Origin: Pseudohalioglobus sediminis
Lineage (GTDB): Bacteria; Pseudomonadota; Gammaproteobacteria; Pseudomonadales; Halieaceae
Direction of reading: 5' to 3'
Length of the DNA: 64,000 bases
Assembly: GCF_008370495.1 (NCBI RefSeq)
Contig: NZ_VTUX01000006.1
Location: 1 to 64,000 of the forward strand
The position numbers and the translations under genes are program-made. Numbering within the stretch: the stretch's first letter is position 1; each line of letters starts with the position of its first letter. The notes beneath the pieces are model-generated. The model saw nothing but the letters and a program-made list of their open reading frames with translations, had not been told where the DNA came from and did no database searches. This document shows positions 22,614 to 59,283 of the stretch, one piece after another.

Positions 22614-23309
22614 CTAACCCCGGGAGTTCGTTGACCTGCGGAATTGCCAACCCGCGGATATCAACAGCCCCAAGGCAGTAAGCAAAAGACCATAAACTGG
22701 CATGGAGGGAATCGCCGTCGCTGCTGGCGCAGGTCCGGGCCCGGGTGGTGTTACGGGGTTTACAGGCACTGGATCGCTCCAACCGGCAACAGTAATGTTG
22801 CTCGCCACGTTTACCGCACTGGCGCGCGGAGCATTAATAGCCGGCGGAGGTGCAATGCCAGAACTGAAGTTACGATAGATCCAGTTTCCACCATTGATGA
22901 TCCAGCGAATGGCACTGCCACCCTGCGGATCGTTACTGGTAACCACCGGCGCGTCGAGTGTAAAGCTACCCCAGGCAGACGGCACGGCCGACAATGCGCC
23001 CGAGCCATCGGTCACAAAACTGCCTCCGCCAGCGTTGAGTTGGGGACTCCCGCTGAAAACGGTCTCGATGGCGCCGTTATTGAGCAGATAGGTGACCGAA
23101 ACGATGTCACTCTCCGTCCATGTTTGCGAGATCGCATCCGAGCTGCCGTTGTCCAGCACAATCGTGACTGTAACGGTTTGGCCCGCTATATAAGGAGGCT
23201 CTATAGGAGCGCCGAGCGTGTCCGTCCACGTTACAGAAAACGGTTCCGCCAACGCGGTGGTGGAAAACAAAAAGAAAAAGGCCGAAATGGCCAGGCGCTT
23301 GATAAACAT
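22614..23309 (-). CDS. Secreted protein with IPTL-CTERM-like sorting tail
   Basis: A 231-residue protein from ATG 23309, chosen because GGGG lies 8 bases before it and a clean signal peptide follows (MFIKRLAISAFFFLFSTTALA). The mature part is a beta-rich, Gly/Ser/Asn/Pro-rich domain, with a Pro linker near 190-205. The C-terminus reads AIPSMPVYG, a hydrophobic span, then QFRR. This resembles IPTL-CTERM tails (IPTLSEWG, membrane span, RR), which exosortase H handles. IPSM for IPTL and VYG for EWG make the match imperfect. No function is known. Confidence 0.65.
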   Translation of the reverse strand: MFIKRLAISAFFFLFSTTALAEPFSVTWTDTLGAPIEPPYIAGQTVTVTIVLDNGSSDAISQTWTESDIVSVTYLLNNGAIETVFSGSPQLNAGGGSFVTDGSGALSAVPSAWGSFTLDAPVVTSNDPQGGSAIRWIINGGNWIYRNFSSGIAPPPAINAPRASAVNVASNITVAGWSDPVPVNPVTPPGPGPAPAATAIPSMPVYGLLLTALGLLISAGWQFRRSTNSRG

Positions 23310-23495
23310 CCCCTTTACCCCTTTTTTAAGGTCTTTTGAATACAACAGCCTCTGGCGCGCCCCGCACCTTCTTTACGGCTGGGCAAACTTTACCATTCCA
23401 AACCCTAAATACCAATGGCAATAGTACGGAAAAGAACCGCCCTACTGCGCCGGGCGGCGCGGTGGCGGCGGTCACTCTGGCTCCAACTATTCCGG

Positions 23496-25187
23496 TTACA
23501 CCTCCTTATGAAGGACAAAATCGCCGATAACAAGGGCATCCAGGCCGGTAGAATAAAAGCAGCGGACAGCTTGCACCGGCGACTCTACAATCGGCTCGCC
23601 CATGACATTAAAACTGGTGTTGAGCACTACAGGGACCCCTGAAAGCTTACCGAACTCAGCGATCATGCGATGATAGCGCGGGCTTATCTCGGCACGCACA
23701 GTATGCAAACGCGCAGAACCATCAACGTGGGTGATCGCTGGCAGGCACGCCCTCTTATCCGGAAGAACGTCACAGACTTTCAACATAAATGGCGCTTCAA
23801 CATCTATGTCGAAATACTCTTTATAAGCCTCCACGGTGCAGGAAGGGGCGAAAGGTCTGTAGGCCTCGCGGTGCTTGACCTCGGCATTAATTTTGTCCTT
23901 CATTTCGGGCAACGTGGGGTCGGCGAGGATACTCCTGCTGCCGAGAGCTCTGGGGCCGATTTCCATGCGCCCCTGAAACCAGCCGATAATCTTACCTTGC
24001 TTCAACAGGGCAGCTGCGGCTGCGCAAGGGTCGTCGACGCGCTCGTAACGTAATTTGCTTTCCTTCAAGACTTTCTCTATCTCGGCATTGGAATACTCGG
24101 TACCGAGATAGGGGTTGTCATGGTGGAATCGTTTCGCGGACTTCAATACTGCATTGTGAACGTAATAGGCAGCTCCTATGGACGTACCGTTGTCACCAGC
24201 AGCGGGCATTACATAGATGTCTTTGAATCGGGTTTCGCGAAGAATTCGACCATTCATGACGCTGTTCAGTGAAACCCCTCCAGCTATCACGAGGTGCTCT
24301 GCAGAGGATCTTTCTTCAAGAATCCGGCACATCTCAAGCGCCCTCTCCTCCAACACCTTCTGGGCCGCTGCAGCAACGTCTTCATGGTGCTGCTCAATCG
24401 CACCGCCTTCCTTCCTGCTCTCGCCGAAAGCCTCCAGGTATTTTGAAGAGAACCTGTTATGCCCCCAGTTCTGATAGTCGAACCAGGAAAGGTCCACCGA
24501 TACCCGCCCATCGTCCTCTACTCGAACAGTCTTATCCATGACATGGAAAAAGCGTTCAGGATCTCCAAAAGGTGAGAGGCCCATGGTCTTGCCTTCATCG
24601 TAGTTGGGCTTGAAGCCACAAAACTGCGTTGCCGTCTCATAAAAAGAGCCTAAAGAGTTGGGAAACTCGCTCTCGCTGAAACAGTCAAAGCTGCTGCCGT
24701 CGGTTTCACCGAGCCAGGTGGTAGACCACTCACCGGACCCATCCATAGACAGCAACGCCGCACGGTCGTAGGGTGATACGAAAAAAGACCCCATTATGTG
24801 GGCCTGGTGATGGTCGACTTTGTGGACCGCGGGGCCGGCACCCTTGCGCCAGTTTTTCGAATACCAGGACCTGAACTGTTTCTGTTTTTTCAGACCCCTG
24901 ATAAGCTCGTGATTAATAAATGGAAGCGCTTTATTGGCCAGTTTCAAGGCATAGATAGCTTTCTTAAACCAGTCTTTGCCGGGATTAATCGAAACAGCAA
25001 CATGATCTATGTCTTCGTACGACAGCCCCGCTATTTCGAGGCAACGTTGTATCGCGACTTCGGGGAACTCTGTCGTATGTTTCTGTCTCGTGAAACGTTC
25101 TTCCTCCAGCGCAACGACAAGCTCTCCATCGACAAGCACACACGCTGAGGAATCATGGAAAAAGTAGTTAATTCCGAGAATGTTCAA
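23496..25187 (-). CDS. Carbamoyltransferase, NodU/CmcH/TobZ family
   Basis: A 563-residue protein. The N-terminal Kae1-like domain carries HDSSACVLVDG and the metal-binding VDHHQAHIMGSFF stretch, with ASKHA phosphate motifs LSMDGSGEWST and VIAGGVSLNSVMN. The C-terminal YrdC-like domain from about 380 contains WFQGRMEIGPRALGSRSI and KHREAYRPFAPS. The family transfers a carbamoyl group from carbamoyl phosphate via carbamoyl-AMP to a sugar or antibiotic hydroxyl. In this island it likely carbamoylates a polysaccharide or precursor. It overlaps the upstream acyltransferase gene by four bases (ATGA). Confidence 0.92.
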   Translation of the reverse strand: MNILGINYFFHDSSACVLVDGELVVALEEERFTRQKHTTEFPEVAIQRCLEIAGLSYEDIDHVAVSINPGKDWFKKAIYALKLANKALPFINHELIRGLKKQKQFRSWYSKNWRKGAGPAVHKVDHHQAHIMGSFFVSPYDRAALLSMDGSGEWSTTWLGETDGSSFDCFSESEFPNSLGSFYETATQFCGFKPNYDEGKTMGLSPFGDPERFFHVMDKTVRVEDDGRVSVDLSWFDYQNWGHNRFSSKYLEAFGESRKEGGAIEQHHEDVAAAAQKVLEERALEMCRILEERSSAEHLVIAGGVSLNSVMNGRILRETRFKDIYVMPAAGDNGTSIGAAYYVHNAVLKSAKRFHHDNPYLGTEYSNAEIEKVLKESKLRYERVDDPCAAAAALLKQGKIIGWFQGRMEIGPRALGSRSILADPTLPEMKDKINAEVKHREAYRPFAPSCTVEAYKEYFDIDVEAPFMLKVCDVLPDKRACLPAITHVDGSARLHTVRAEISPRYHRMIAEFGKLSGVPVVLNTSFNVMGEPIVESPVQAVRCFYSTGLDALVIGDFVLHKEV

Positions 25188-26314
25188 TCACAAACCCCTT
25201 TTGCGGGCGAAATCCATCGATCTCGAATACTCGCCAGCTTATCCTTTGCATAGAAATAGATGAAACTCAGGTTAGCCAAGAGTGTGGGCCCGAAACATAC
25301 CGCTTCGTAAACCGCTGCAGACTCGAAGTGCCATCTGTCAGCCCAGTAAGGGGCTGTGGTGAGGTTTATCTCCGTGACTTCCGGATCGTCGACCATCAAC
25401 TCGATGAAGCGCTGTAGCAAAACACTACCTGGCCCGTATTTCTTGTATTCTTCCGAGTACCCTACTTTGAGGATGTGCCAAGTGCCACCCACTCGAATGG
25501 CAAGCATACCGGCAACAGCCTTCTCACCGAAGTGGAGCAGGAAAACGCGTGAACGGATATCCTCTCCGCAGTTCACGAACAGCGCGCCGAAGAACTTCTG
25601 CGCCAATTCATCTGCAGCGAGGCTGGTACAACTCCCGTCATGGCCTTTCCAGCCGGACGACTCGATATTCATGAACTCCCGATAGAATTCTTCGCGCTGA
25701 CCACTGAGCTCGCTTGAGGACAGCGCTATTTCGCCTACCTCTCTTTCCGCCTTGCGGGCCAGACGAGTGCAGTTCTTCCACATTTTTCGGGAAATATGCT
25801 GTAAGTCAGCCCTCTCCCCGCAGGGGATATAATCACACTCGGAAATTTTACGAACCAACGAAGACGTGTCTTGCAGCTCAGCAAAAAGCGTAGACTGCTC
25901 AGAGAATTTCCTTAGCTTGCAGTAGTCCCAGCTAAAACCCGATTGAGACGCTACATGCTTGAGGACGAAATCGAGGATACCCGACCTGGCATATGCGCGA
26001 TCCACCAGGATGTCATTCAAGTAAATGTTCGAATCTGTAGGCAGCTGAAGCCAGCGCAAGCTGAAGAAGCCTACGCCACGAGAGCACCGCTCCAATGGAA
26101 CAACGGCAATCAGCTTGCCACTGTCGTAAACGCAGTAATACGCCACACGCCCCGGCAGCAAATCCGAGGAGACGGCCTTTGACCATGAAAATTCATGCAC
26201 ATAACTCCGGTTCATCACCTGCGGCAAAAAGCCAAGCCACTGTCCCCGAAGCGAATCGAGATCGGTACTCTCTGTTACCTCGCACACCTCATAGTTGGCC
26301 GAGCTGAAGTGCAT
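25184..26314 (-). CDS. FemAB/BioF2-like GNAT-fold acyltransferase
   Basis: A 376-residue protein from ATG 26314; a TTG at 26329 with GGGG 8 bases upstream is an alternative. It shows the twin-GNAT pattern of the PF13480 group: a weak N-terminal half and a C-terminal core with EKAVAGMLAIRVGGTWH, LKVGYSEEYKKYGPGSVLLQ and VTEINLTTAPYWADRWHFES. Such proteins acylate sugars in exopolysaccharide loci (BcsL/PelX-like roles are described for relatives). It is translationally coupled to the carbamoyltransferase, so both may modify the same sugar. Confidence 0.75.
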   Translation of the reverse strand: MHFSSANYEVCEVTESTDLDSLRGQWLGFLPQVMNRSYVHEFSWSKAVSSDLLPGRVAYYCVYDSGKLIAVVPLERCSRGVGFFSLRWLQLPTDSNIYLNDILVDRAYARSGILDFVLKHVASQSGFSWDYCKLRKFSEQSTLFAELQDTSSLVRKISECDYIPCGERADLQHISRKMWKNCTRLARKAEREVGEIALSSSELSGQREEFYREFMNIESSGWKGHDGSCTSLAADELAQKFFGALFVNCGEDIRSRVFLLHFGEKAVAGMLAIRVGGTWHILKVGYSEEYKKYGPGSVLLQRFIELMVDDPEVTEINLTTAPYWADRWHFESAAVYEAVCFGPTLLANLSFIYFYAKDKLASIRDRWISPAKGVCD

Positions 26315-27039
26315 TTCAATGCTAGTCAATCTAAGTACCCCATTTGGGAACCGGCCCCTGTGCTGATCGTTTATTGACCACCCGGCACACCCCTATTTCC
26401 TTCAACCCCAAACTCACTCGGCGCCTGGTAAGCCTTTGGCATTGAGCGCCAAAATAACCACCTCTTGCAACACCGAATCTTAACATTTCCCCTAATTTTG
26501 TGTTGTGACTCTATTCACAGAGTTAACCCGGGAGAGAACGCTATTTTGATCATAAAAACGTCGCTTTTTGTCGTTATTTTGCTCCATAAGCGATCGAGTG
26601 AACAACTGGGCAACATTGTCTGCAAGCCATGCCTGCCAGCCATACAGGATTTTTTAACTGCATATTCAAAGGGTTACAGCACAAAGAGAGAATAACCACG
26701 CATCTGGCAGCCGATCATGGCGCTTGAAAACTCTGTCTCGTCGTATTTCGCTACGCGATTCAGAAAACCCGGCAAAGCCAGGCCGATTGAGCTCACTTTC
26801 CGCCTGCCCCCCAGCGCTCTGCTCATCCCCCGACTACCATAAGTCTGGCCGCAGAACCTGAGCCCAGAAGCAAAAATCCAAATGTCGGAAGGCCCTTGAT
26901 ACTGTTATCGCCGATCAGCCATATCCGAATCTAAAGATGCTATACTGTCACGGGCACAACATCTTGGTTTCCCTCCCAAACGCCGCACCCTAGGTTACTG
27001 CGCGCATGGCTGAATCCCCACTGAGATGAATGGGGTAAA
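26315..27039. other. Large gene-free spacer between divergent acyltransferase genes
   Basis: About 725 bases with no credible coding frame. It must hold promoters for both divergent transcripts. On the plus strand an extended -10, TGC-TATACT (26938-26946), lies 94 bases before the next gene, with no clear -35. The rest is AT-rich and contains no obvious repeat, terminator or RNA gene. Confidence 0.45.
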
Positions 27040-28338
27040 ATGAAAGTACTAAAATTTGACACAATCACGGACGATGTCATTCTCCTTGCGCAGAAGTTCC
27101 CGCGCTCTGTAACGCCATCTTGGCAAGAACTGGCCGCCCTCCAACAGGTTGACAGTAAGCCCCTGAGGATAATTGCAATCGTCGAAGACAATGATTGCCG
27201 GGCACTTTCATGCTGTTTCATTGAAGAGAGGCAAATCGCCGGTATGCGGATAGCCTCCTACAGCGCTTATGGTTACGATTTTTTCGATTACAACTGCTTG
27301 TTTTCGGAACCCTCTTTCATAAGCGTTTTACTCGAAGAAATCAGGAAAGATGCCAAAGCTGCTGGTGCGGATCATATACGCCTAAAGAACATCATCCTGG
27401 ACATCACCGAAGGGGTTAAACGCGGTGTCGTCCACACACACCAGACATGCATCTACGACAGCAGCCTGGAAGAAACCGGATACCAACCGCTACTTCGCAA
27501 GAAAAGCCTGAAACGTCACGTTAATAAATGTAAGAGAAGCTTCTCATACAGCTGTGAGCACTTCACAGGTGAAGAAATACCTCTGGCTGAGGTAGAGCAA
27601 ATGGGAGCTCTACATATCGAAACCAGGCAATTCCACAACACACCCAGCGCATTTACCAAAAGTTCCACCGTAGATCGGTACATGTCACACCTGGGTAACA
27701 GAATCCTTACGAAAATCAGTGTGGATGATGAACCCCTCGCTTACCACTACGGCATTAGATTCAACGACACCATGATCTGGCATACGCCAGTTGTAAACAT
27801 CAAGTATTACAATTACTCCCCCCTGGAGGTGTTGCTCTTCGAGATGATCGCATACTGCGAAAAGGCGGAGATTCCTGTTATTGACCTTGGTATAGGCGAC
27901 GAAGTGTACAAACTTCGTTTCTCTAATTCCCGACGCGAGGTGCACGATCTGGTTCTCAAATTGTCACCGAAAGGCCATCTGATCAACATTCTGAAGTCTG
28001 CAGATGCCCGCCTCGGCATGCGGAGTCGAATACAGCGTTTTGCCCCGCAGTCTGGCAGCTCAAAACAGAAAACGCACGCGGGTGTGCTCACCAGCAATAA
28101 CGACGACAGCGCAGCACCAGCAGCGGCTACAGGGCACAAAGACACACCTCTTGTCGTGGCCAGGGATTTTGAGGAGTTTGTTGACTACTGCAGGCAAAAT
28201 GGACTCGGCATCACTCATCAGGACTATGATAATTTGAGATCAGGTATGGTCTTTTGTAAGAACGAACCCCAGGTGGAATATGGCAATGGCCACGCCTGGA
28301 AACACGTCGATGACGAGAAGACGAGCCAGCCAACGTAA
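27040..28338 (+). CDS. FemAB/GNAT-fold acyltransferase with C-terminal extension
   Basis: A 432-residue protein; GGGG lies 5 bases before the ATG. It belongs to the same PF13480-like group as the gene at 25184: SLKRHVNKCKRSF, DEPLAYHYGIRFNDTMIWH, YYNYSPLEVLLFEMI and PVIDLGIGDEVYKLRFSN are typical. Residues about 345-432 form an extra tail: an Ala/Ser-rich linker, then a short domain with ARDFEEFVDYCRQNG. I do not recognise that tail. Sugar acylation in the island is inferred. Confidence 0.72.
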   Translation: MKVLKFDTITDDVILLAQKFPRSVTPSWQELAALQQVDSKPLRIIAIVEDNDCRALSCCFIEERQIAGMRIASYSAYGYDFFDYNCLFSEPSFISVLLEEIRKDAKAAGADHIRLKNIILDITEGVKRGVVHTHQTCIYDSSLEETGYQPLLRKKSLKRHVNKCKRSFSYSCEHFTGEEIPLAEVEQMGALHIETRQFHNTPSAFTKSSTVDRYMSHLGNRILTKISVDDEPLAYHYGIRFNDTMIWHTPVVNIKYYNYSPLEVLLFEMIAYCEKAEIPVIDLGIGDEVYKLRFSNSRREVHDLVLKLSPKGHLINILKSADARLGMRSRIQRFAPQSGSSKQKTHAGVLTSNNDDSAAPAAATGHKDTPLVVARDFEEFVDYCRQNGLGITHQDYDNLRSGMVFCKNEPQVEYGNGHAWKHVDDEKTSQPT

Positions 28339-28633: not shown

Positions 28634-29584
28634 ATGAAGGCAAAGACAATAGACGTAAGTATTCTGATCGTAAGCTGGAACACGATAGAGTTGGTTGATA
28701 GCTGCCTAAGTTCAATTGAAGAACAGATTGGAACCGACCTTGCGGTCGAAACTATCTTGGTAGACAACGCTTCCGCGGACGGCACATCAGCACTGGTAAA
28801 AGAAAATTACCCTGACGTATTACTCATTGAGAATACAGAGAATGTCGGCTTTGCGAATGCGGTTAATCAAGCTGCCCGCGAAGCCAGCGGTAGATATTTC
28901 TTTTTGCTGAACAGCGACGCAAAACTTCTTGATCGAAAACTTCCTGAACTGGTGTCTCTCATGGATGCCGACGATTCAATAGGTGTTGCATCAGGCGCTC
29001 TAGAAGGTAGAAATCACCGTAGGCACATGCCATGCCGTGCTTTCCCGAGCCTGATCGACCTCGTACTCAGCTACACCGTCGATTGTGTTTATCAATTCCA
29101 GCGCGGAAAGCCGAGAAGTGGCCAACGGCGCGAAGTTGCCGAATATGAGAATGGCACAAAATGGTGCGAAACCGATTGGATACCCGGATGCTACATGTTG
29201 GTCCGGCGCGATTTAATGGATGCAGACGGGCTGCTTGATCATCGGATATTCATGTACTACGAGGATACGCTCCTGTGCCACAAAGCGTGGGACAGGGGGT
29301 ACCGTGTCGTTTCGGTAGACACCGCTTGCGTCTACCATCACTCCGGAGCCAGCGCTCGACAGATTTCAACAACGACCACCTGTCATAGCTACAAGAGTAG
29401 CCGAATTTACGTTGAGTCACTAAACGGGCCACGCACTCTCTGGTGGTACGAGCGTTATAATCGTGGTGTCTGGCGACTGTTTATTTCAGTCTTCTTCATT
29501 CTGGAAAATGTAGGCCTCCGGGAAAAAGCTCAAGAGAAGCGCGCCCTGTTTTCTGCCCTGCTTAATATTCCCCGGCTAACCTAG
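28634..29584 (+). CDS. GT2-family glycosyltransferase
   Basis: A 316-residue GT-A enzyme of the rhamnosyltransferase-like GT2 group. The N-terminal VSILIVSWNT and ETILVDNASADGT motifs bind the nucleotide sugar, LLNSDAKLL stands in place of the DXD motif, and PGCYMLVRRD with FMYYEDTLLCHKA gives the catalytic acidic residues. It would add one sugar to the lipid-linked repeat unit on the inner face of the membrane. The ATG has no strong ribosome-binding site. 295 bases separate it from the acyltransferase gene. Confidence 0.88.
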   Translation: MKAKTIDVSILIVSWNTIELVDSCLSSIEEQIGTDLAVETILVDNASADGTSALVKENYPDVLLIENTENVGFANAVNQAAREASGRYFFLLNSDAKLLDRKLPELVSLMDADDSIGVASGALEGRNHRRHMPCRAFPSLIDLVLSYTVDCVYQFQRGKPRSGQRREVAEYENGTKWCETDWIPGCYMLVRRDLMDADGLLDHRIFMYYEDTLLCHKAWDRGYRVVSVDTACVYHHSGASARQISTTTTCHSYKSSRIYVESLNGPRTLWWYERYNRGVWRLFISVFFILENVGLREKAQEKRALFSALLNIPRLT

Positions 29585-29767: not shown

Positions 29768-30817
29768 CTACGCCAGGTTTAGATAGATAGACTTGAGTTT
29801 AGGCACAATCACTTCCGGGCAGTAACGCTCCTGATAGCACCGCAATGCAGCCTGTCCCAGGTGATTTCTGGACTCCACGTCACGAAAGAGTGACAGGATC
29901 GCCTGTGCCAGGCCATCAATATCGCCAGGCTCGACCAGCAGACCATTCGCTCCAGATTCAATCACCTCAGGAATGCCTCCCACAGGTGTCGCAATCAGCG
30001 GAAGCGCAGACGACATCGCCTCCAGGATGGACATGGGCAGGCCCTCGTTATATGAGGGGAGCAGAAATACATCTGCTTTTGAATAGTAGTCCGCTTTGTC
30101 TTCAATGCCGATCCAGCCTTCAACCGAAAAGAAATCTGCCAGACCCGCGGCAGCTATTTCCTCGTTCACTTTCTCGATTTCACCATCCCCGCAAAGATAG
30201 AAAACGCTGTCCGGTATTTGCTGCGCAATTCTTCCCACGGCACTTATCAGATCATAAACGCCCTTTCTCTCCCCCAGCTTACCCATGAACAGTACGGCAA
30301 ATTGGCTGGAGTCACTCTTGGCAGCGTCTATTGGTATTTGCGGAACGAAATTGTTAACTACCTCAATTTCCGCATTGTCGGCAATGGACAAAACATATGC
30401 TTTCCAGCTCTCCGAGAGCACAATAACTACATCAGCGCGATGAAACGTCGATTTCACCATCTCCTTCGTTACAGTGGATGCACTGGAATAGAAGACTTTG
30501 AACTCCGAACCGTGTAAATGCAGTATTACCTTGCACCCAAATACCTTACCGATCAGTGTAAGCAGCCATTTACGGAAAAAACTACCGTAGCTTGCAACAT
30601 GTATGTGCAATATTGGTTTCCGGGGAAGAAGCCGCAATAACTGGAAAATTGACCGGGCAAATATCATTAATCTGCTGAACACGGACCCGATATCGTGTGT
30701 CGCTATCCAGTGGTGGTCGTAGTCCTCGTACAGCCCAACGGAAATATAGTTTTCGACGACAGTCCTGATACCACCCGGACCTTTCGTTGAAAGCGTTATT
30801 ATCGTAGTTCGATCCAT
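29768..30817 (-). CDS. GT4-family glycosyltransferase
   Basis: A 349-residue GT-B enzyme from ATG 30817 (AAGGGG upstream); the frame extends to a TTG at 30841. It has the N-terminal STKGPGGIRTVVEN loop, LHLHGSEFK, the nucleotide-binding core VLFMGKLGERKGVYDL, and the E-x7-E motif region SYNEGLPMSILEAMSSALPLIATPVGG. It would transfer an unknown sugar with retention. It is convergent with the GT2 gene. Confidence 0.9.
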   Translation of the reverse strand: MDRTTIITLSTKGPGGIRTVVENYISVGLYEDYDHHWIATHDIGSVFSRLMIFARSIFQLLRLLPRKPILHIHVASYGSFFRKWLLTLIGKVFGCKVILHLHGSEFKVFYSSASTVTKEMVKSTFHRADVVIVLSESWKAYVLSIADNAEIEVVNNFVPQIPIDAAKSDSSQFAVLFMGKLGERKGVYDLISAVGRIAQQIPDSVFYLCGDGEIEKVNEEIAAAGLADFFSVEGWIGIEDKADYYSKADVFLLPSYNEGLPMSILEAMSSALPLIATPVGGIPEVIESGANGLLVEPGDIDGLAQAILSLFRDVESRNHLGQAALRCYQERYCPEVIVPKLKSIYLNLA

Positions 30818-31276: not shown

Positions 31277-31297
31277 CTATTTCTTCGGGAGAAGTCC

Positions 31298-48991: not shown

Positions 48992-49038
48992 CGCCACTCA
49001 AAAGGAAACAACTTGTCCGTAAACACCAGTCATCTGCA

Positions 49039-49965: not shown

Positions 49966-50038
49966 GATTACATCAATCCCGTTATGTCTCGTTACACTCA
50001 AGCCTGGATCGCACAAAATATGCGAACCACCTTTACCT

Positions 50039-51511
50039 TCAAGGCGTTGAGCCGCGTTGGTCAGGGCGTATCAGGGCCCTGACTTCCAGATAGGCCTGCT
50101 TTACCGTCGCATAACCAAAAATCATCACAAAGAAAGCATAAGCCAGGAAAAAAAGGAAACATTGCAATGCCAAATTGGCGAGTAAACTACCGGAATAGAT
50201 ATTCATATAGGTAGGCAGAAACTCAACAGACAACCAGCTTAGAACCAGGGCCACCGCTATACCCAAATACTGCCGAAGAATTACGGCGATGGGATAATCC
50301 AGAATATCAGCTATGTAATAGAACAACATGACACTGAATACCACGGAACCGGCGGCCCAACCAGCAGTGAACGCCTGCAAGCCATAGCTCGCCAGCAGTC
50401 CGCCAAGAAGGATACTCACAACCACCTGGACAGCGGTGGCCCGCAACAGGCTCCCGGGGTGGCCTTTTGCCTTTAGCAGTGGCTGAGCGAAAAAAGTCGA
50501 TGTTCTTGCCATGCCACCAACCGCGATAATTTGGCAAATTACACCAGCGTCACGCCACTTCTCACCAAACACAATGGCCGTAATGTCTTCACCATAAAAA
50601 ACAAAGAGGGCCATCACGGGAAAGCCAAAGAGCGCGATGACTCTGGCTACCGCTGCACTGCTTTCTACCAGGCGTTCAGTATTCGATTGTAAACGAGAGA
50701 AAGCAGACATTGTCACCTTGAGGATAACCACTCTGGTGATACCCAGAATCACCTCAACAAAGCGACGACCAACCACATAGACCCCCAAGGCACCGACACC
50801 GAAGAATTGGCCAATCAACAATCGGTCAATATTACTGCCAGCAAATTGCAATAAATTGATACCAACGATACGTGAGGCATATGTCCATATTTCCCCGAAC
50901 GCATGAAGAGAAAATCTGAGTTTTGGAAACCAACGTGTAACCCACCACAAGGTTATCCACTCTGCAAAGCGCTCGACCAGTTGTTGCGCCACCAGGCTCC
51001 AGACACCGTAACCATTGAGCGCCATCGTGATACCCACGACAGCACCGCTGCTTGTTGATATCCAACCGCGAATTGCCAGGCTTCGAAAAGACAGCCTGCG
51101 CATCAACAAGCCCTGCTGCACCCTGGAAAGTGAGAGCGGTATGATCCCTATAGCCAGACAATAGATAATGGGTTGCAGTTCAGGCTCACCACTCCAACTC
51201 GCAGCCAGGGGTGCAATGACAATAGAAAGTAAGATTGCAATAACACCGAGAATCACCGTTGCCCAATAGGCAGTATCTTTGTGCAGATCGGTCAAATCCT
51301 CGCGCTGGATAATCGCATCGGTAATCCCCATTCTTACAACGAGTTGTAAAAAGGCGATATATACGGAAGCGAGCGCAACCAATCCAAAGTCTTCCCGGCT
51401 CAATGCCCTGGCTAAAATCAGAAAAGTGGCAAACTGAACCACTCTGACACCGGCAGTTTCCGCCGTTGCCCAGATGACACCGGAAAGGACTTTTTTCCTT
51501 ATGCTCGGCAT
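50039..51511 (-). CDS. Wzx-type polysaccharide flippase (PST family)
   Basis: A 490-residue membrane protein with about 12-14 hydrophobic spans. The N-terminus KKVLSGVIWATAETAGVRVVQFATFLILARALSREDFG (here read in pieces) is the start of the WzxC/MurJ-like PST group. It would flip the lipid-linked repeat across the inner membrane before polymerisation. It lies beside the WecA-like initiating enzyme on the same strand. Confidence 0.88.
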   Translation of the reverse strand: MPSIRKKVLSGVIWATAETAGVRVVQFATFLILARALSREDFGLVALASVYIAFLQLVVRMGITDAIIQREDLTDLHKDTAYWATVILGVIAILLSIVIAPLAASWSGEPELQPIIYCLAIGIIPLSLSRVQQGLLMRRLSFRSLAIRGWISTSSGAVVGITMALNGYGVWSLVAQQLVERFAEWITLWWVTRWFPKLRFSLHAFGEIWTYASRIVGINLLQFAGSNIDRLLIGQFFGVGALGVYVVGRRFVEVILGITRVVILKVTMSAFSRLQSNTERLVESSAAVARVIALFGFPVMALFVFYGEDITAIVFGEKWRDAGVICQIIAVGGMARTSTFFAQPLLKAKGHPGSLLRATAVQVVVSILLGGLLASYGLQAFTAGWAAGSVVFSVMLFYYIADILDYPIAVILRQYLGIAVALVLSWLSVEFLPTYMNIYSGSLLANLALQCFLFFLAYAFFVMIFGYATVKQAYLEVRALIRPDQRGSTP

Positions 51512-51632: not shown

Positions 51633-53261
51633 TCACAAATTAACTCCCGTCAGTAAAAGCGCGCATATAGATATAAAAATAAGCCTGTTTACCGCTTTTT
51701 CGCCCCGCGCGAGCACGTACTCACTGGTGTACAACAACACACATATCCGGAACGGCGCACTGATTACTTCTGATCCATCCCCAAATTCAACCACTAGAAG
51801 CGGTGTAAGTGCCACGATAAACAACGCAACCAAGAGGTCTTCTGTAGTCAGCCCGAAATACTTCTTCCGCGTAATTCTTATGGAAAGTAGTAGCAAGACC
51901 GTCATACCAACGAACAAAGCGTTGATAAGGAAGTCAAGTCGGCCATCGTCAACCGATATTGTCATACCCCAAACTATGAATATGGTCGTGGTATAGGAGG
52001 CTATGCGGCCAATAAGTTGCCGCAAGTTATTCGGCAGGATTAATACCGCTGCCAGCAAGATCGCCGCCCAGACAATAGCCACGTATATGATATTCGGGGA
52101 AAACGCTGTAGACGTGAGCGCGCCGAATGCGAAAAACAACGCAAGGAGCACGGTGAAGAAAACACCAGTATAAGGATGCAAGACACCCAGACGTCGAAAA
52201 ATTGCGACGCGTTTGTCTCGATCATCGGAAGAATCAAGCGGCCTTATCTTCCATTCACTCACGTTAGCGATATATATCGTACCAAGTGTCAAGACAGCAA
52301 AGGCCATGAAAGCGATCAAAACAAAAACATCACTCTCGTCACGTAAAAGATACGCACCAACGAGCAATATAGCCTGCAGCACATAGATGATAGCGACGAC
52401 CTCGTACTGGCTAAAACCCAGCTTGGCTACCTGGTGATGCAGATGTTCCTTGTCCGGACCGGCCAGCGGCAATTTCTTGTTGATGCGAACAGGTACGACC
52501 TGAAGAATATCCATTACCGGCAGCCCAAGTATCAGCAGCGGCATTAGACTTGTCATGGCACTGGTATCGCTCTGGCTAAGCGTGATAGCTAACCATGCGA
52601 CCGTAAAGCCGAGGAACTGACTACCGGCATCTCCCATAAATATCCGCGCCGGGTGGGTATTAAATCGCAAGAAACCCAATACAGCAGCCGAGACCGCCAC
52701 CGCGATGACCGCGACTGTCGTATGACCAGTTTGCAAGGCCAGAACAAAAATCAACGCAAGCGCCATCAAGGTTGTGCCTGCTGCCAGGCCGTCCATGCCA
52801 TCTGAGAAATTCACACCATTGATTACCCCCAGGACGAAAATGAAAGTAATGACATGAATAAGCCATGCGGGGACATCACTAAAAATGGGGAAGTCAGTCA
52901 CTACCATTCCGCCCGCCATGGCGATAACTACGCCAAGCGCTTGCCCGCCGATTTTCTGTATCGGACTCAGCTCCACCAGGTCATCAAGCAAGCCAAACCC
53001 TGCAATGACCATAGCAGCCAGGACATAACTGAAGATCGGCTCATCGGCCGGAAGCACGATAAGAACCGAGAGGGCGGCAGACAGGATGATTCCGAGGCCG
53101 CCACTGCGCGGAATAACGTTGCTGTGTATCTTGCGGGCATCGCCGGTTGGGTCATCAACCAGCCCCCAACGGGCTGAATTACGTATCAGAAAGGGGATGA
53201 ATACGAGAGATGAAAGTAGCGCAACGAGGAAACTATACGGATAGAGGTACTGGGCATCCAT
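51633..53261 (-). CDS. WecA/MraY-family phosphoglycosyl transferase with C-terminal extension
   Basis: A 542-residue polytopic protein. The first 340 residues are WecA-like: GLLDDLVEL, VNFSDGMDGLAAGT, and FMGDAGSQFLGF are the catalytic and metal-binding loops, followed by HLHHQ in the cytoplasmic loop. It would transfer a sugar-1-phosphate to undecaprenyl phosphate to start the repeat unit. The remaining 200 residues add about six more hydrophobic spans, with a cytoplasmic stretch RPLDSSDDRDKRVAIFRR between, beyond the usual WecA size. It lies three bases from the ATPase gene. Confidence 0.9.
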   Translation of the reverse strand: MDAQYLYPYSFLVALLSSLVFIPFLIRNSARWGLVDDPTGDARKIHSNVIPRSGGLGIILSAALSVLIVLPADEPIFSYVLAAMVIAGFGLLDDLVELSPIQKIGGQALGVVIAMAGGMVVTDFPIFSDVPAWLIHVITFIFVLGVINGVNFSDGMDGLAAGTTLMALALIFVLALQTGHTTVAVIAVAVSAAVLGFLRFNTHPARIFMGDAGSQFLGFTVAWLAITLSQSDTSAMTSLMPLLILGLPVMDILQVVPVRINKKLPLAGPDKEHLHHQVAKLGFSQYEVVAIIYVLQAILLVGAYLLRDESDVFVLIAFMAFAVLTLGTIYIANVSEWKIRPLDSSDDRDKRVAIFRRLGVLHPYTGVFFTVLLALFFAFGALTSTAFSPNIIYVAIVWAAILLAAVLILPNNLRQLIGRIASYTTTIFIVWGMTISVDDGRLDFLINALFVGMTVLLLLSIRITRKKYFGLTTEDLLVALFIVALTPLLVVEFGDGSEVISAPFRICVLLYTSEYVLARGEKAVNRLIFISICALLLTGVNL

Positions 53262-53264
53262 GCC

Positions 53265-54170
53265 TCACCCAACCATATCCAACAGATCTACAGACTTCTG
53301 TATTTTGACTTCTTCGCGCACGGTTTCTCGCGCGGGGTCGGTACCTATTCCGGGGCGATGTATACCGCCGATCTGTTTGGCCTGAACAACGTTAAGTACG
53401 ATGTCGAGATTAACCGTCTTCTTACCGAGTCCAAAAGCAACAACCAGTGCGCCATCACAGAGCGTATTGATTATGCGTGGAATACCCCCGCTGTAATAAT
53501 AGATCGCCATAAGTGAAGTCGCATCGAACAGATCGGGAGGTCCGCCCACCGCTTCAATACGGTAGTTGACATAACTCATACTTTCTAAAAGGTTAAGCGG
53601 CTCGAGGCGATATTCCGCCGATACCCTTTGTGCCAACTGCGACATGGAGGGATCGTAAAACTTGTCCAGTAATTCAGGCTGTCCTACCAGAATCACCTGT
53701 AGCAACTGGTTTTTATCCGCGTTGATATTGGTGAGAAGGCGCAGCGACTCCAGGTCAGACTTCGACATATTCTGCGCCTCGTCTACAATCACCAACGTGC
53801 GCTTGCCCTCGGCAGACTGCTCGATAAGAAAGTCCTGCAGCGTTTGCAGAAGCATTCCTTCGTCACTGGTGTCGACAGGTATTCTGAACGCATTAATAAT
53901 CCATTTGAGCAATGAACCGTAAGCGTCGTGCGGGGTGCTGATAAGCCCCAGCGTGATTTCTTCGTAGTCCGTGCGGCTGAGCAAGTGGCGAATGAGCGTT
54001 GTCTTGCCCGCCCCTACTTCACCGGTGATTACTGTAATTCCCACCTGCTCCAGCAGGCCGAACTCCAGCATGTTGTAAGCCTTCAGGTGGACACTGGAAA
54101 AGAAGATCGATTCCGCGTCAGGTATGAGAGAGAACGGCTTTTCGCTAAGCCCAAAAAAACTTGTATACAT
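53265..54170 (-). CDS. XrtA-system-type ATPase (ExeA family)
   Basis: A 301-residue AAA ATPase. It starts with the family opener MYTSFFGLSEKPFSLIPD, then Walker A TGEVGAGKTTL, Walker B LVIVDEAQNMS and sensor TNINADKNQLLQVILVGQPELL. It belongs to the ExeA group found in exosortase-A (PEP-CTERM) polysaccharide loci (TIGR03015-like). Its role in EPS export is not established. It lacks the C-terminal peptidoglycan-binding part of ExeA proper. Confidence 0.88.
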   Translation of the reverse strand: MYTSFFGLSEKPFSLIPDAESIFFSSVHLKAYNMLEFGLLEQVGITVITGEVGAGKTTLIRHLLSRTDYEEITLGLISTPHDAYGSLLKWIINAFRIPVDTSDEGMLLQTLQDFLIEQSAEGKRTLVIVDEAQNMSKSDLESLRLLTNINADKNQLLQVILVGQPELLDKFYDPSMSQLAQRVSAEYRLEPLNLLESMSYVNYRIEAVGGPPDLFDATSLMAIYYYSGGIPRIINTLCDGALVVAFGLGKKTVNLDIVLNVVQAKQIGGIHRPGIGTDPARETVREEVKIQKSVDLLDMVG

Positions 54171-54188
54171 CGAGTGGCACCAACCCCG

Positions 54189-55070
54189 CTAGCGCGCCTT
54201 GTTGAGCACAGTACCCAACAATTCTGTGTTCTTCAGTAGTTGCATACAGCGCTCAATCTCATCCGGATTGGTGCCGCCGTCTTCCACCACCAGTAGGCAA
54301 GCGTCCGTATTAGGCACGAAAACCATGGCGTCGTCGTTTCTCAGTAGCGGCGGCAAATCAAACACAACTATGCGGTCCCTGTATCGACCGACCACGTCTG
54401 CAAGAAAAGACATCATCTCTGGCGACGTGAGTAACTCTGAAGCATGATGCCCCTGCGGAAGACCCGGCACAACAACAAGCCGGGGATAACCAGGGTTTAT
54501 CAGTATATTTTCCAAAGGTTCCCCGTGCTGCAGATGGTCAACAATCCCTTTATCAACCTCTATACCCAGAGTTTTACAGACGCTAGGTTCGCGCAGGTCC
54601 AGATCGACGAGCATGACCGTCTGGTTCACCTCTTGCGAAATGCTTATTGCAAGATTTATGGCCGTCAGCGTCTTTCCAACATCTTCCCTGGGACCAGTTA
54701 CGGCGAGCGTGCTCCAACCGTTCAGGTTCATGCTGCTCAGTACCTGGCTTCTGAGCTGACGGTAGGCCTCCACCCGGGGATCATCCCTGTCACCGGCAAT
54801 TATGCGGTTTTCATTTAACAGCTCCTGCGGAGGCTCCACACATCGAGTTTTCTGGTACTCAATATTCTTGGGAGCGGCTTTTCTTCTCCTGGCTCCCCTC
54901 GTGCGTGCGTTCTGTGTGGAAGTGCGGGAGCTGTGCAACGGCCGCCTATCTGACGCAACATCAGAAGAAGCTTCATCATTTCCCCGCTTCTCTCCGGGAC
55001 TCCGCGTCTTGCCGATAGCTCCCTCACGCTGTTCGCGCGCCTTTTCGATTGCTTCTTGTAGATAATCCAT
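54189..55070 (-). CDS. CpsD/CapB-like tyrosine-kinase-family ATPase, XrtA type
   Basis: A 293-residue protein. The first 80 residues are polar and basic (linker with RGARRRKAAPK). The kinase-like P-loop domain has Walker A GPREDVGKT and Walker A' VMLVDLDLREPS, plus VVFDLPPLL. It resembles the tyrosine autokinase of exosortase loci (TIGR03018-like) that partners the chain-length regulator encoded upstream. The C-terminus ends LLGTVLNKAR and lacks the tyrosine cluster of classical BY-kinases. Confidence 0.85.
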   Translation of the reverse strand: MDYLQEAIEKAREQREGAIGKTRSPGEKRGNDEASSDVASDRRPLHSSRTSTQNARTRGARRRKAAPKNIEYQKTRCVEPPQELLNENRIIAGDRDDPRVEAYRQLRSQVLSSMNLNGWSTLAVTGPREDVGKTLTAINLAISISQEVNQTVMLVDLDLREPSVCKTLGIEVDKGIVDHLQHGEPLENILINPGYPRLVVVPGLPQGHHASELLTSPEMMSFLADVVGRYRDRIVVFDLPPLLRNDDAMVFVPNTDACLLVVEDGGTNPDEIERCMQLLKNTELLGTVLNKAR

Positions 55071-55114
55071 TGGCCTATTTCCCAGCGCTCAAATTCATTT
55101 GCCCGGCGTTACAA

Positions 55115-56824
55115 TCATTGTATAAAAGAGTATGTCGTAAAGGACACAACCAACACCGTTGCAGCCAAAGCCACAATCGCAATAGTCCAGGTACGCCGAC
55201 GATTCATAATATCGATATCATTTTCGATATAGGGGATAGCCACCAACGGTGCCTCTCCCATTTCCAAAGTGAGCTGACGAACGCCATGGATGGCGCTATC
55301 TGTCACTTCTCGCAACACAACGAGCCCGCCACCCAATCCTATTGCCACGATCATTCCAAGAAAGATGATAGCCGGTCGATTCGGGCTCACGGGATCCTGC
55401 GGCAGGGCAGGAGGTTCGATTACGGCGAAATGCTCCCCTTTTTGCTCCTGTTCGAGATTCATCGCCACAATCGCTTCGCGCTGCTTGGTCTTGATGTCCC
55501 GGTACTCTTCGGTAGCATTATCGTAGTCACGCAGCAAAGCCTGATACTTCTTTTCCACTTCAGGCGCGCTGTTGATCTTGTATTCGTACTCATCAATCAC
55601 TCTCTGCAATTCCTGCTGGCGACCGACTAATGTCCTCAACTCCGATTCCACGGAAAACAGCTCTCCTTGCAAGAGTATATATGCGGGGTTGTCAGCGACT
55701 GCACCATCAGAACTGATGTTCGCGTCGCCAGCTAATCTAATACTCTCTTCCAGCTGCTCAATCACCCGACGCGTGCTCACAACCTCCTGGTGGCTGTCAT
55801 TGTATCGGGTCTCCAGATCAGCCAGGCGCTGCTGTTGCTCCCGCAACTGTCGACGCAACTCATCCGCGTCAGCACCAATTCCCAGCTCACTCTGCAGCGT
55901 CTCGATTTCGCGCTTTAATCGGATTAAGTCAGGGTGGTTATCTCGATACAGAGCGACCTTACGTCGATATTCAGCCTGAAGAGCCTTAAAACGATCTACA
56001 TCGCTCATGACCACATCCCCTGTCGAGGTATACACCGGGGCTGATGGACTGATCTGGGACATTCTGGACGCCAACTCAAACTTGCGTTTTTCCAGCTCGC
56101 TAGAGCGAAGCTGCAGCGCAACCATGTCACGTCTGGCATTTTCGAGATTAACCAGATTACGATTGTAGAGCTCGGGAAGATTACCCTCGTTAGCAGACTT
56201 GAAATCTGCCAGCAGCTGTTCCAATTCCAGGAGTTCGGCATTCATTCTTCCCGCTTCCGACTCAAGGAAGTCTGCCGTGCTGGCGGCCTGTTCAGTTCGC
56301 TCTCTGGCATTTTCATTGAGGAACAGTGTCACCAACTCATCGGTGACGGCCTGGGCCATCTCCGGTCGCGGACTTTTGAAAGCAAGAGTGAAAGCTATCG
56401 TAGCCTGAGTCGGACGGCCGCTTCTCGGGTCAATTACTTCAGCACTCACCAGGTCAAGCTGTACATTCTGCCTGAATTTCGCAACCAGCCTGCTGTCGGG
56501 CGCCTCATCTCCTTCCACGTACTGGTACAACTGAAATTTCTGGATAATCTTCGCTATATTCTCAGAGGTCAGCACTCTCTGACTTGTAACCTGCACACGT
56601 TGCGCTGCATAACTGGTAATCGTTGAGCGTACGAAGTCTCTCGGCACTTCTTGCTCCTGGATCAGGATCGTCGCCTGAGACTGGTAGGACGCTGGCAGAC
56701 CGAAAGCAATAACGAGCGCAAGTGGGATAATAATGATAGCCGGCACCAGCAGCCAAAACTTGCGACGCTTCACTACGTCTAAATATTCTGAAACAGGCCT
56801 GATTTGCAGTTGTTCGTCAGCCAT
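55115..56824 (-). CDS. GNVR/Wzz-family polysaccharide chain-length regulator, XrtA type
   Basis: A 569-residue inner-membrane protein. A Wzz-type N-terminus has TM1 at about 20-45 (FWLLVPAIIIIPLALVIAF). A long periplasmic coiled coil with repeated heptads runs from about 150 to 430. The GNVR-like region has PVSPNRPAIIFLGM before TM2 at about 475-500. Another short hydrophobic span ends the protein. It sets chain length with the tyrosine-kinase partner. AAGGG precedes the ATG. Confidence 0.9.
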   Translation of the reverse strand: MADEQLQIRPVSEYLDVVKRRKFWLLVPAIIIIPLALVIAFGLPASYQSQATILIQEQEVPRDFVRSTITSYAAQRVQVTSQRVLTSENIAKIIQKFQLYQYVEGDEAPDSRLVAKFRQNVQLDLVSAEVIDPRSGRPTQATIAFTLAFKSPRPEMAQAVTDELVTLFLNENARERTEQAASTADFLESEAGRMNAELLELEQLLADFKSANEGNLPELYNRNLVNLENARRDMVALQLRSSELEKRKFELASRMSQISPSAPVYTSTGDVVMSDVDRFKALQAEYRRKVALYRDNHPDLIRLKREIETLQSELGIGADADELRRQLREQQQRLADLETRYNDSHQEVVSTRRVIEQLEESIRLAGDANISSDGAVADNPAYILLQGELFSVESELRTLVGRQQELQRVIDEYEYKINSAPEVEKKYQALLRDYDNATEEYRDIKTKQREAIVAMNLEQEQKGEHFAVIEPPALPQDPVSPNRPAIIFLGMIVAIGLGGGLVVLREVTDSAIHGVRQLTLEMGEAPLVAIPYIENDIDIMNRRRTWTIAIVALAATVLVVSFTTYSFIQ

Positions 56825-56842
56825 ATACTTGAAAACCCTTGT

Positions 56843-58033
56843 TCAACGTGACCAAACGCTTTTCGTCGGTCGAAAAATTACGCTCAAAAGTATGGAGTTC
56901 GAGTCGGCGCTATCCTCTGCACGCTCCTGGTCCTGCCAGGCATACTGATAACTGCCGGCCACATACCAAGACTCGGAGAATCGATAATCCAGTCCAAAAC
57001 GCACACGAGCATAGTCCCGATCGAGATCGAAACTGTCATCGACGGCACCGCGTTGACCGGCATCAAACTCCACCTCGAAGTTGCTCCGCTCAGTCATCTG
57101 ATACGTATAGTCCAGGCCCACTGCGTGATTTTCGACTACCGTGCCGCTGCCGCTAGGGCGCGGAGCACTTTCGATTGTCGCTCTCACTCGCTGGCGTTCT
57201 CCTCGATAAGTCAGCGAGCCGCTTAACAGCAGCATATTAGACTCATCATCAGCCGGAGGGTCGAGCAAATCACTGGAATACTCGGTGTCGATGTTAGCCC
57301 AACCAATAAGCAGAGAAGTGGAAAAACTTTCGGATAAAGTGGAGTCAAACCCGAACCTGGCGCCGATGGTTTCTGTGTCTACCTCAGTATCGAAACCGGA
57401 ATTCGCATCGTTTTCAAAAGTACTGCCGTAGGCCTGCAGCGTCACCTGAGTGCGCGCACTCCACTGATGCAGCCAGCCTGCGTAACCTGACAAGTACTGA
57501 TAGTCCTGCAATACTGATGTGTCGTAATCCACGTCGTCGAAGTCCAGGCCACCGATTATTCCGTTGTTCTCGGTGAACATGTGGTTACCGGAACCTCCGA
57601 TGCTGGCTGTTTCACGTCGCCTGGCTTCCAGACCGGTGACCCCCGTATCAAGGAATTCACTGGTACGGGTACTGTCGCGCCGATATCTTGCATAGCCATC
57701 AACGTCACCACGTTCAAACTGATATGACGCATCTCCTCGCAATTCCTGGTCGTCACTGTCCCAAGCGTCTTCATCGTACCGTGAAAACAACATTTCGCCC
57801 GAGAGCGAAGCGTCCAAACGCTCGCTCCGCGTCCCGAGTGTGACCGGGATTGACAACCACCCGCCGGATATCTCCAGCTCATCTTCCGGGACCAAGCGCA
57901 CGTTGTCGTTATACTCGTACCCACCCTCTACCTCGTATTCAAACGAGTACTCATTGGCCTGTACGACGCTACCAAGCAATAGCACAGAAGAAAGCACCAG
58001 GGTCGGTGCTGCGAATTGACGTCTGTTTGGCAT
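56843..58033 (-). CDS. Outer-membrane beta-barrel protein of the EPS export locus
   Basis: A 396-residue protein from ATG 58033, behind GGAG; the frame opens 24 bases upstream. A signal peptide with core LVLSSVLLLGSVVQA ends at VQA-NEYS. The mature part is alternating strands with many aromatic, Asp and Glu residues (SFEYEVEGGYEYNDN, LGLDYTYQMTERSNFEVEFDAG). This fits the barrel-type protein (TIGR03016-like) of exosortase-A loci, which may form the outer-membrane channel or anchor. It ends KSVWSR rather than the usual aromatic residue. Confidence 0.8.
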   Translation of the reverse strand: MPNRRQFAAPTLVLSSVLLLGSVVQANEYSFEYEVEGGYEYNDNVRLVPEDELEISGGWLSIPVTLGTRSERLDASLSGEMLFSRYDEDAWDSDDQELRGDASYQFERGDVDGYARYRRDSTRTSEFLDTGVTGLEARRRETASIGGSGNHMFTENNGIIGGLDFDDVDYDTSVLQDYQYLSGYAGWLHQWSARTQVTLQAYGSTFENDANSGFDTEVDTETIGARFGFDSTLSESFSTSLLIGWANIDTEYSSDLLDPPADDESNMLLLSGSLTYRGERQRVRATIESAPRPSGSGTVVENHAVGLDYTYQMTERSNFEVEFDAGQRGAVDDSFDLDRDYARVRFGLDYRFSESWYVAGSYQYAWQDQERAEDSADSNSILLSVIFRPTKSVWSR

Positions 58034-58053
58034 GCTTCGGTCTCCTGGGATAA

Positions 58054-58617
58054 TCACGGCACAACAACCACGTCTTTACTCTGCAAGACGATATTGGATT
58101 CGAGAGCCTCGCCAGCCTTGACTCTGGCGTAGCGGAAAGGAATTGCGACTTGCTGACCATCTGGCTGTCTCCGCAATATACGGATATCGTTCTCTGCGGC
58201 GAATGCGTTAAGCCCTCCAGCCAGCGCCAGGGCCTGCATAACGTCAGTATCACTCGTGACAATGTATTCACCCGGTCGCTCAACTTTACCGATGACATAG
58301 ATTTTATTGCCATTGACGTTGACCAAAGAAACCACTACCCGAGGCTTGTCCTTCATATACTTGCCCAGGGCCTTGGATATCTTGTCAGCGACAACTGAAG
58401 GGGTGGTATTGGTGGTATCGACCTCGCCGGCCATTGGCAGGCTGACGATGCCGTCTGGGCGCACCAATACCTCTCGACTGAGGCTCTCTTCATTCCAGAC
58501 ATCTATACGCAGCAGGTCACCCGGATTAACCGTGTAGGAATCTGAGATGGAGATCGAAGAATACAACGATAGCCCTAGAGCTATCAGGATTAATCGGCTG
58601 ATTTGACTAAATGACAT
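58054..58617 (-). CDS. Wza-like polysaccharide export protein, XrtA type
   Basis: A 187-residue protein from ATG 58617; a GTG 6 bases earlier is an alternative, with GGGG suiting both. A signal peptide with core LILIALGLSLYSSI is followed by the export domain YTVNPGDLLRIDVWNEESLSRE and VRPDGIVSLPMAGEV, then a SLBB-like region (IYVIGKVERPGEYIV, DVMQALALAGG). It would form the periplasmic/outer-membrane export conduit. There is no lipobox cysteine, and indeed no cysteine in the mature part, unlike classical Wza. It is first of the export operon. Confidence 0.88.
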   Translation of the reverse strand: MSFSQISRLILIALGLSLYSSISISDSYTVNPGDLLRIDVWNEESLSREVLVRPDGIVSLPMAGEVDTTNTTPSVVADKISKALGKYMKDKPRVVVSLVNVNGNKIYVIGKVERPGEYIVTSDTDVMQALALAGGLNAFAAENDIRILRRQPDGQQVAIPFRYARVKAGEALESNIVLQSKDVVVVP

Positions 58618-58893
58618 TGGCACTGCCCCTTTCTGCCGCGGCCAGGATTACGAATAGTTATTCATGGCCTACGCTATTTTAACCGTAAGAAATATACAAC
58701 AACATGAACCCATCTTTCGTAAATAATGGACGCATTCGTGGACGAGTTCACATTTGCTAGCTGCAACTACTGACATCGCCCCAGGGCTATCGCGCGAGAC
58801 TCATGCCCAAAGCGCACGACCCATAAGCAAAGATAGATGCCTTTCCGGCTGAATGCCTGCCTGGATGGGAGAATAAATGACCAGGATCAAAGA

Positions 58894-59283
58894 TCAGTGA
58901 GGGTGAACATGTGGACGACGACGCGCCACAACGCTGAATCCCAACACCGCGGAAAGGAGCAACCAAACCAGGCCGTCTCCCGACTCCGCACGCATTGTAT
59001 TATCGCGCAATTCAGCTGCTCCAGCTGCACCAACACCAGCCCCGGTCAAGGGAAGTATCTCGTATGATTGGGAGAAGACGGGTGCCTCGCTGCCGACAGT
59101 AACCACGGAAGCAGGCATGGCCACAGAATCCTGTAACAACGCGGCCAGTTGCAACTCGTCGGCCTGGTGGCTCCCATTCTGTGGGTGTAAAAGAGAAGCA
59201 TTAGCAACACTATTGACGCCGCCAAGCCACACACACAGCACCACGAGTGGATACGCTTTGATGAATTTTGTAAAAACCGACAT
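58894..59283 (-). CDS. Small secreted protein with C-terminal membrane span and RRR tail
   Basis: A 129-residue protein. An N-terminal signal (PLVVLCVWLGGVNSVANA) leads into a polar mature part. The C-terminus is ESGDGLVWLLLSAVLG, FSVVARRR, then PHVHPH: a short motif, a single span and an arginine cluster. This layout fits exosortase or rhombosortase sorting signals, but the motif is neither PEP nor IPTL. It lies beside the XrtA-type export operon on the same strand, 271 bases upstream. I do not recognise the family. Confidence 0.55.
   Translation of the reverse strand: MSVFTKFIKAYPLVVLCVWLGGVNSVANASLLHPQNGSHQADELQLAALLQDSVAMPASVVTVGSEAPVFSQSYEILPLTGAGVGAAGAAELRDNTMRAESGDGLVWLLLSAVLGFSVVARRRPHVHPH

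Follow-up and report, generated by a model that had tools for sequence, protein, structure and literature searches.

A candidate Wzx/Wzy-dependent locus for a sulfated, acidic exopolysaccharide in Pseudohalioglobus sediminis

Described sulfated polysaccharide loci and the P. sediminis island

Synechan, the product of the xss genes of Synechocystis PCC 6803 (pSYSM), is a genetically proven sulfated exopolysaccharide (EPS), and in 2021 its authors were unaware of any other bacterial EPS cluster with sulfotransferases (PMC8205485). The capsule of the gammaproteobacterium Cobetia marina KMM 1449 is a native sulfated polysaccharide accompanied by sulfotransferase and 3′-phosphoadenosine 5′-phosphosulfate (PAPS) genes (PMC11766843); in these two cases the sulfated polymer was demonstrated or structurally solved. 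The EPS of Pontiella sulfatireligans is glycosaminoglycan (GAG)-like and chemically N-sulfated, and a candidate cluster is available for it (PMC7356697). Here we describe a block of genes in a 64,000-nucleotide stretch of the Pseudohalioglobus sediminis genome (contig NZ_VTUX01000006.1, positions 1 to 64,000; the whole stretch is called the window). The block is likely to be a complete, exchangeable Wzx/Wzy-dependent EPS or capsule locus making a sulfated heteropolysaccharide with an acidic sugar.

The synechan cluster and the P. sediminis island are both of the Wzx/Wzy type, with sulfotransferases located among the glycosyltransferases and a two-component system. However, the cyanobacterial cluster has two sulfotransferases instead of four and starts synthesis with a sugar transferase rather than a WecA-type enzyme. 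In addition, no NodB deacetylase, lyase or N-acetylhexosamine (HexNAc) dehydrogenase is annotated in the portion of the xss region that was compared, while the island has all three. The Cobetia capsule, also gammaproteobacterial, follows an ABC-transporter route and consists of a Rha2S/Man6PGro repeat without uronic acid. The P. sulfatireligans locus, from the Verrucomicrobiota, is likewise a candidate with many glycosyltransferases, but it contains one sulfotransferase; the island is described here from its genes, which include the export machinery and lyases. The number of sulfotransferases, the NodB protein, the HexNAc-type dehydrogenase and the dedicated tandem lyases set the island apart from all three systems. 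A preliminary description of this DNA stated that few bacteria have native sulfated polymers. This is a fair statement for proven polymers, of which few are known beyond cyanobacteria, but relatives of one of the island sulfotransferases (ST1) are widespread. The island and an independent locus that shares its core provide concrete genes for study. They could also be a source of bacterial carbohydrate sulfotransferases, and of a lyase to match, with which sulfated polymers might be made or analysed.

The gene block is a true island because the GC content drops and four genus mates lack the block between the flanking genes. GC content is about 0.59 in the surroundings and 0.47-0.53 (about 0.50) across 22-60 kb of the window. 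In three genus mates (G242, G159 and G135) the aspartate aminotransferase gene (f14) is directly followed by hyp2 and miaB, and in a fourth (G222) Lon is followed by hyp2. The MiaB protein of the window is 76% identical to that of Marinobacter and 75% to that of Teredinibacter, which makes the order Pseudomonadales likely. Compared with these genomes the inserted block extends from about 17.7 to 59.7 kb, and its low-GC polysaccharide portion from about 22.6 to 58.6 kb; these limits replace the extent given before (22614-59283), within which the genes were correctly placed. At the same site another genus mate, G294, keeps the export module (WecA 55%, ATPase 77%, tyrosine kinase 63%, Wzz 51%, outer-membrane protein 49% and Wza 70% identity) together with a different middle part that includes a Sulfotransfer_4 protein. 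A common export module with differing middle parts is the usual architecture of capsule and EPS exchange loci. The variable middle of G294 also encodes a beta-helix protein. Table 1 lists the features of the inserted block.

Table 1. Features of the inserted block, with positions in the window.
Feature	Position	Strand	Basis
Sensor kinase and sigma-54 response regulator (GlrK/GlrR type)	17737..21073	+	Pfam; NCBIfam GlrR 623 bits; no counterpart between f14 and hyp2 in genus mates
Secreted protein, C-terminal hydrophobic anchor and Arg-rich tail	22614..23345	-	Translation; no Pfam or NCBIfam match
NodU-type carbamoyltransferase (sugar O-carbamoylation)	23496..25187	-	PF02543/PF16861; 38% to Leisingera EPS-plasmid carbamoyltransferase
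FemAB/GNAT-like acyltransferase 1	25184..26329	-	PF13480 E=4e-18
FemAB/GNAT-like acyltransferase 2	27040..28338	+	PF13480 E=7e-15
GT2 glycosyltransferase, non-processive size	28634..29584	+	PF00535
GT4 glycosyltransferase a	29768..30841	-	PF00534/PF13692
Secreted polysaccharide-lyase protein A	31298..33772	-	Three PF14099 domains, one keeping the conserved residues, two with replacements; signal-like segment
Secreted polysaccharide-lyase protein B	34384..36027	-	Two PF14099 domains; first RTE/QIH/Y, second RTQ/EIR/L
Family-less protein adjoining the Gfo/Idh gene	36559..37419	-	No significant Pfam, NCBIfam or PDB match
Gfo/Idh/MocA oxidoreductase, possibly sugar-nucleotide 3-dehydrogenase	37456..38604	-	PF01408/PF22725
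Wzy-type polymerase (probable)	38728..39990	-	PF04932; 30-32% homologues in two EPS loci
PssE/PssD two-part glycosyltransferase, WelK-like (glucuronosyl/galactosyl type)	40154..41166	-	NCBIfam PssE, PssD, WelK matches below equivalog cut-offs
Nucleotide-sugar 6-dehydrogenase, UDP-HexNAc class (GGHC loop)	41311..42666	-	TIGR03026 434 bits; PDB ranking; active-site loop
ST1, heparan sulfate 3-OST-like sulfotransferase (catalytic-Glu motif KETKFF)	43095..43979	-	Pfam, PDB search, motifs; 53% orthologue in independent EPS locus
ST2, sulfotransferase	44412..45311	+	Pfam, motifs; 41% orthologue in the same independent locus (G374) as that of ST1
ST3, sulfotransferase	45582..46490	-	PF13469 48 bits; motifs
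NodB-fold polysaccharide deacetylase	46821..47852	+	PF01522 E=2e-15; metal-site motifs TFDDG, HSYNH
GT4 glycosyltransferase b	47888..48997	-	PF00534/PF13439
ST4, NDST-like sulfotransferase (KETYYL)	49039..50016	-	22 bp from wzx; 32% to Leisingera EPS-plasmid sulfotransferase
Wzx flippase	50039..51511	-	PF13440
WecA-type initiating HexNAc-1-phosphate transferase	51633..53261	-	PF00953, TIGR02380
Export module: ATPase, tyrosine autokinase, Wzz, outer-membrane protein, Wza (XrtA-associated families)	53265..58623	-	Counterpart at this site in G294, 49-77% identity
Small secreted protein, C-terminal hydrophobic segment and Arg-rich tail	58894..59283	-	Translation; no family

Sulfotransferases, assembly route and the predicted polymer

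The four sulfotransferases reported in the preliminary description are real. ST1 to ST4 passed the curated cut-off of PF00685, and ST1, ST2 and ST3 also passed that of PF13469. The loop that binds the 5′ side of PAPS is intact in each (GAQKSGTT in ST1, GYHKTATT in ST2, GAQRSGTT in ST3 and GAPKCGTT in ST4), and the 3′-phosphate motif RxxxD/ExxxS is retained in all of them; a recent review regards these two features as class-defining (PMC11625862). A PDB search identified heparan sulfate 3-O-sulfotransferase 3 (E=3e-18) and the N-deacetylase/N-sulfotransferase NDST (E=2e-6) as the nearest characterised solved structures for ST1 and ST4, respectively, and found no solved relative of ST3. The ST1 motif aligns with the E.HFF stretch of the 3-O-sulfotransferase, the site of the catalytic glutamate in heparan sulfate sulfotransferases; the corresponding motif of ST4 is given in Table 1. 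Since no signal peptide was seen in the island sulfotransferases (ST1 and its relatives begin at the P-loop), these enzymes probably act in the cytoplasm with PAPS. An APS kinase was found elsewhere in the genome, where PAPS synthesis genes had been proposed as a check, and the PAP phosphatase CysQ, which removes PAP, is also encoded outside the island.

The other genes that had been named (the dehydrogenase, NodB, the carbamoyltransferase, two FemAB proteins and lyase-like proteins) were all found in place by profile searches. The Wzx/Wzy export route, described as full, is clear for Wzx, WecA, Wzz, the tyrosine kinase and Wza, and probable for Wzy, which at 29.6 bits falls slightly short of the Pfam cut-off of 31.7.

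Similar gene sets occur in other genomes. Genome G374 belongs to the same class but to a different family, and a single 40-kb stretch of it carries orthologues of ST1 (53%) and ST2 (41%), two more sulfotransferases, Wzy (30%), Wzz, a tyrosine kinase, WecA (31%) and PF14099 lyases. On a Leisingera plasmid a relative of ST4 (32%) adjoins another sulfotransferase and is accompanied by GT4 genes, carbamoyltransferases and EPS export genes. With two carbamoyltransferases and two sulfotransferases, this plasmid has a similar decoration set in a roseobacter. ST1 and XssA of the synechan cluster are distant homologues (24%, E=6e-16).

The gene families, the island pattern, the G374 locus and the APS kinase and CysQ genes make it likely that the island directs the synthesis of a sulfated heteropolysaccharide by the Wzx/Wzy route. 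As in a synechan-like locus, a complete set of Wzx, Wzy, polysaccharide co-polymerase and outer-membrane export proteins occurs with sulfotransferases that have intact motifs and with PAPS synthesis in the genome. The earlier proposal of a sulfated, uronic-acid-containing EPS made by a Wzx/Wzy route is well supported by gene content, by the independent locus that shares this core and by the supply of PAPS. In the proposed pathway WecA would load HexNAc-1-phosphate onto undecaprenyl phosphate, and the GT2 enzyme, the two GT4 enzymes and the PssD/PssE pair would add further sugars, giving a repeat of at most about five. The acidic sugar would be supplied by the dehydrogenase, possibly also by the Gfo/Idh protein, and UDP-glucuronic acid (UDP-GlcA) could come from an enzyme encoded elsewhere. 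The cytoplasmic sulfotransferases would place sulfate from PAPS on the lipid-linked repeat, and the unit would be carbamoylated, acylated and N-deacetylated alongside. After flipping by Wzx, the units would be joined by Wzy into a chain whose length depends on Wzz and the tyrosine kinase and which leaves through Wza; the secreted lyases would trim or release the cell's own polymer.

Several points weigh against this proposal. The reactions, the polymer itself and the position of its sulfate are read from gene families, and the substrates of the sulfotransferases are unreadable from sequence. APS kinase and CysQ have a role in routine sulfate assimilation as well. ST2 and NodB run opposite to the genes around them, so that coregulation is presumed. 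In favour of the proposal, another island gene family lies at most 10 kb away in 38 of 78 ST1-like loci drawn from 84,980 species genomes, but this proportion has no background rate to set it against. Other products of this genome are likely to be sulfated too, because 14 of its 18 PF00685 places are outside the island. The genome is sulfation-rich: several of the 14 places, all on other contigs, are in frames of more than 500 amino acids, and 11 sulfatases are encoded elsewhere.

The abundance of sulfotransferases elsewhere, the opposite orientation of ST2 and NodB, and the many contexts in which ST1-like genes are found would fit an acidic but unsulfated EPS, with the four enzymes located here by chance and acting on lipids, small molecules or proteins. 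We consider this improbable. Under random placement the chance of four in 36.7 kb is about 1e-5 and that of four within any 7 kb, as found, about 7e-5, figures to be read with the caveat that functionally related genes cluster anyway. Furthermore, ST4 is separated from wzx by only 22 bp, an unrelated genome has orthologues of ST1 and ST2 next to wzy and genes for lyases, and ST1 is related, if distantly, to a synechan enzyme.

The acidic sugar, the backbone and the secreted lyases

The island dehydrogenase, by its ranking in PDB searches and its active-site loop, points to an amino-uronic acid (UDP-HexNAcA as the donor) as the probable acidic sugar. UDP-ManNAc and other UDP-HexNAc enzymes ranked first (4r16 231 bits, Cap5O 227, 3g79 176) and UDP-glucose-type enzymes scored lower (CalS8 152 bits, 3vtf 125). 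The loop, GPGLGGHCIPIDP, has the GGHC of the HexNAc enzymes, whereas 3vtf and CalS8 have GGSC. A second dehydrogenase, an E. coli-type Ugd (UDP-glucose dehydrogenase, loop FGYGGYCLPKD) on contig C23 outside the island, could be a source of UDP-GlcA. The Gfo/Idh protein scored 101 bits against the UDP-GlcNAc 3-dehydrogenase model, under the model cut-off.

These results bear on the suggestion of a GAG-like, heparan-type polymer in the preliminary description, of which the sulfation part is well supported and the backbone part weakly supported. A polymer of this type would alternate uronic acid and hexosamine, with N-deacetylation and N-/O-sulfation. The nearest solved structures of ST1 and ST4, the NodB deacetylase, the Ugd that could supply GlcA and the resemblance of PssD/PssE to the WelK glucuronosyltransferase are consistent with it. 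However, the family models for sulfotransferases favour GAG enzymes (PMC11625862). Moreover, the dehydrogenase of the locus belongs to the UDP-HexNAc class rather than being a UDP-glucose 6-dehydrogenase, and the lyases match glucuronan and alginate lyases, not heparinase I. Known bacterial GAGs are made by processive synthases and exported by ABC or synthase systems, while the island has a GT2, two GT4s and PssD/PssE with Wzx/Wzy, no processive GlcA/HexNAc synthase, and four to five transfer steps that imply a larger repeat. A motif scan, insensitive for NodB and dehydrogenases, detected a NodB motif near ST1 relatives in only one of the 78 loci. We therefore regard a heparan-type backbone as unlikely.

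A narrower idea, which we also rate as improbable, is that NodB and ST4 may be a bacterial two-gene counterpart of the animal N-deacetylase/N-sulfotransferase. Both partners, including the sulfotransferase nearest to NDST, are present, but NodB is rare beside ST1 relatives in the loci scanned. The pair would generate N-sulfated glucosamine on a lipid-linked repeat bearing uronic acid, ST1 would add an O-sulfate, and the dedicated lyases would degrade the product. If true, this would be a natural N- and O-sulfated polymer made by the Wzx/Wzy route.

The first domain of lyases A and B retains the RTE, QIH and Tyr of GLY in alignments, and its Gln and Tyr line up with those of glucuronan lyase in a profile alignment. 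The later domains have RTQ, EIR/ELR/EIL and GLL, and are probably non-catalytic, substrate-binding copies. A hydrophobic, signal-like stretch precedes the first domain in both proteins. The only significant PDB relative of the domains was glucuronan lyase 2zzj (E=2e-5), found by profile search; a single-sequence PDB search with lyase B returned nothing. The same structure was the best Foldseek match (TM 0.71) of a first-domain model of lyase B, followed by PL7 alginate lyases, and no heparinase I (PL13) was among the 50 matches listed. The model is of moderate quality (pLDDT 61, pTM 0.68), so the residue positions rest on the alignment. The island proteins share the jelly-roll fold and the first-domain Gln and Tyr with PL20 glucuronan and PL7 alginate lyases, but differ in having tandem domains with conserved residues replaced in the later ones.

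We infer that lyases A and B trim or release the polymer of the cell that makes them. An alternative for these two proteins, possible but in our view the weaker one, is that they forage on foreign polyuronates such as algal glucuronan or alginate and stand outside biosynthesis. Their closest solved relative is an endo-glucuronan lyase, and another contig (C16:573771-574988) encodes a third such secreted protein, which has two PF14099 domains and is 60% identical to lyase B, next to genes for an acyl-CoA ligase and a GNAT protein and with no EPS genes in the open reading frames scanned around it. However, both lyases sit within the EPS island, PF14099 genes are also present in the independent sulfotransferase-bearing EPS locus of G374, and the search of the seven other genomes of the genus revealed no homologue of lyase B. 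A search of 140 genomes of the family identified only two homologues, both weak. A scan of viral contigs showed one distant, PF14099-like homologue (27%) on a 72-kb viral contig, possibly a phage depolymerase.

Export families and flanking genes

The ATPase, tyrosine kinase, Wzz, outer-membrane and Wza families of the export module are those of XrtA/PEP-CTERM EPS loci, but the island genes score under the cut-offs of those models. No exosortase (TIGR02602) match was found across the genome, and the island is not assigned to this group. Despite this lack of an exosortase match, the tails of the two secreted proteins at 22614 and 58894 resemble sorting signals. The predicted model of the family-less protein at 36559 was unusable (pLDDT 44).

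The two-component pair lies inside the inserted block and may be tied to the EPS genes, a candidate link only. Control of these genes by the adjoining sigma-54 response regulator was unsupported by a sigma-54 promoter scan, which gave 43 matches against 41.8 expected. Assignment of the protein as a PEP-CTERM regulator was rejected, as it scores as GlrR instead. The inserted block also includes a luciferase-like (alkanesulfonate-type) monooxygenase at 21288-22379; genus mates give weak matches only, and a 55% paralogue is located at C16:442828.

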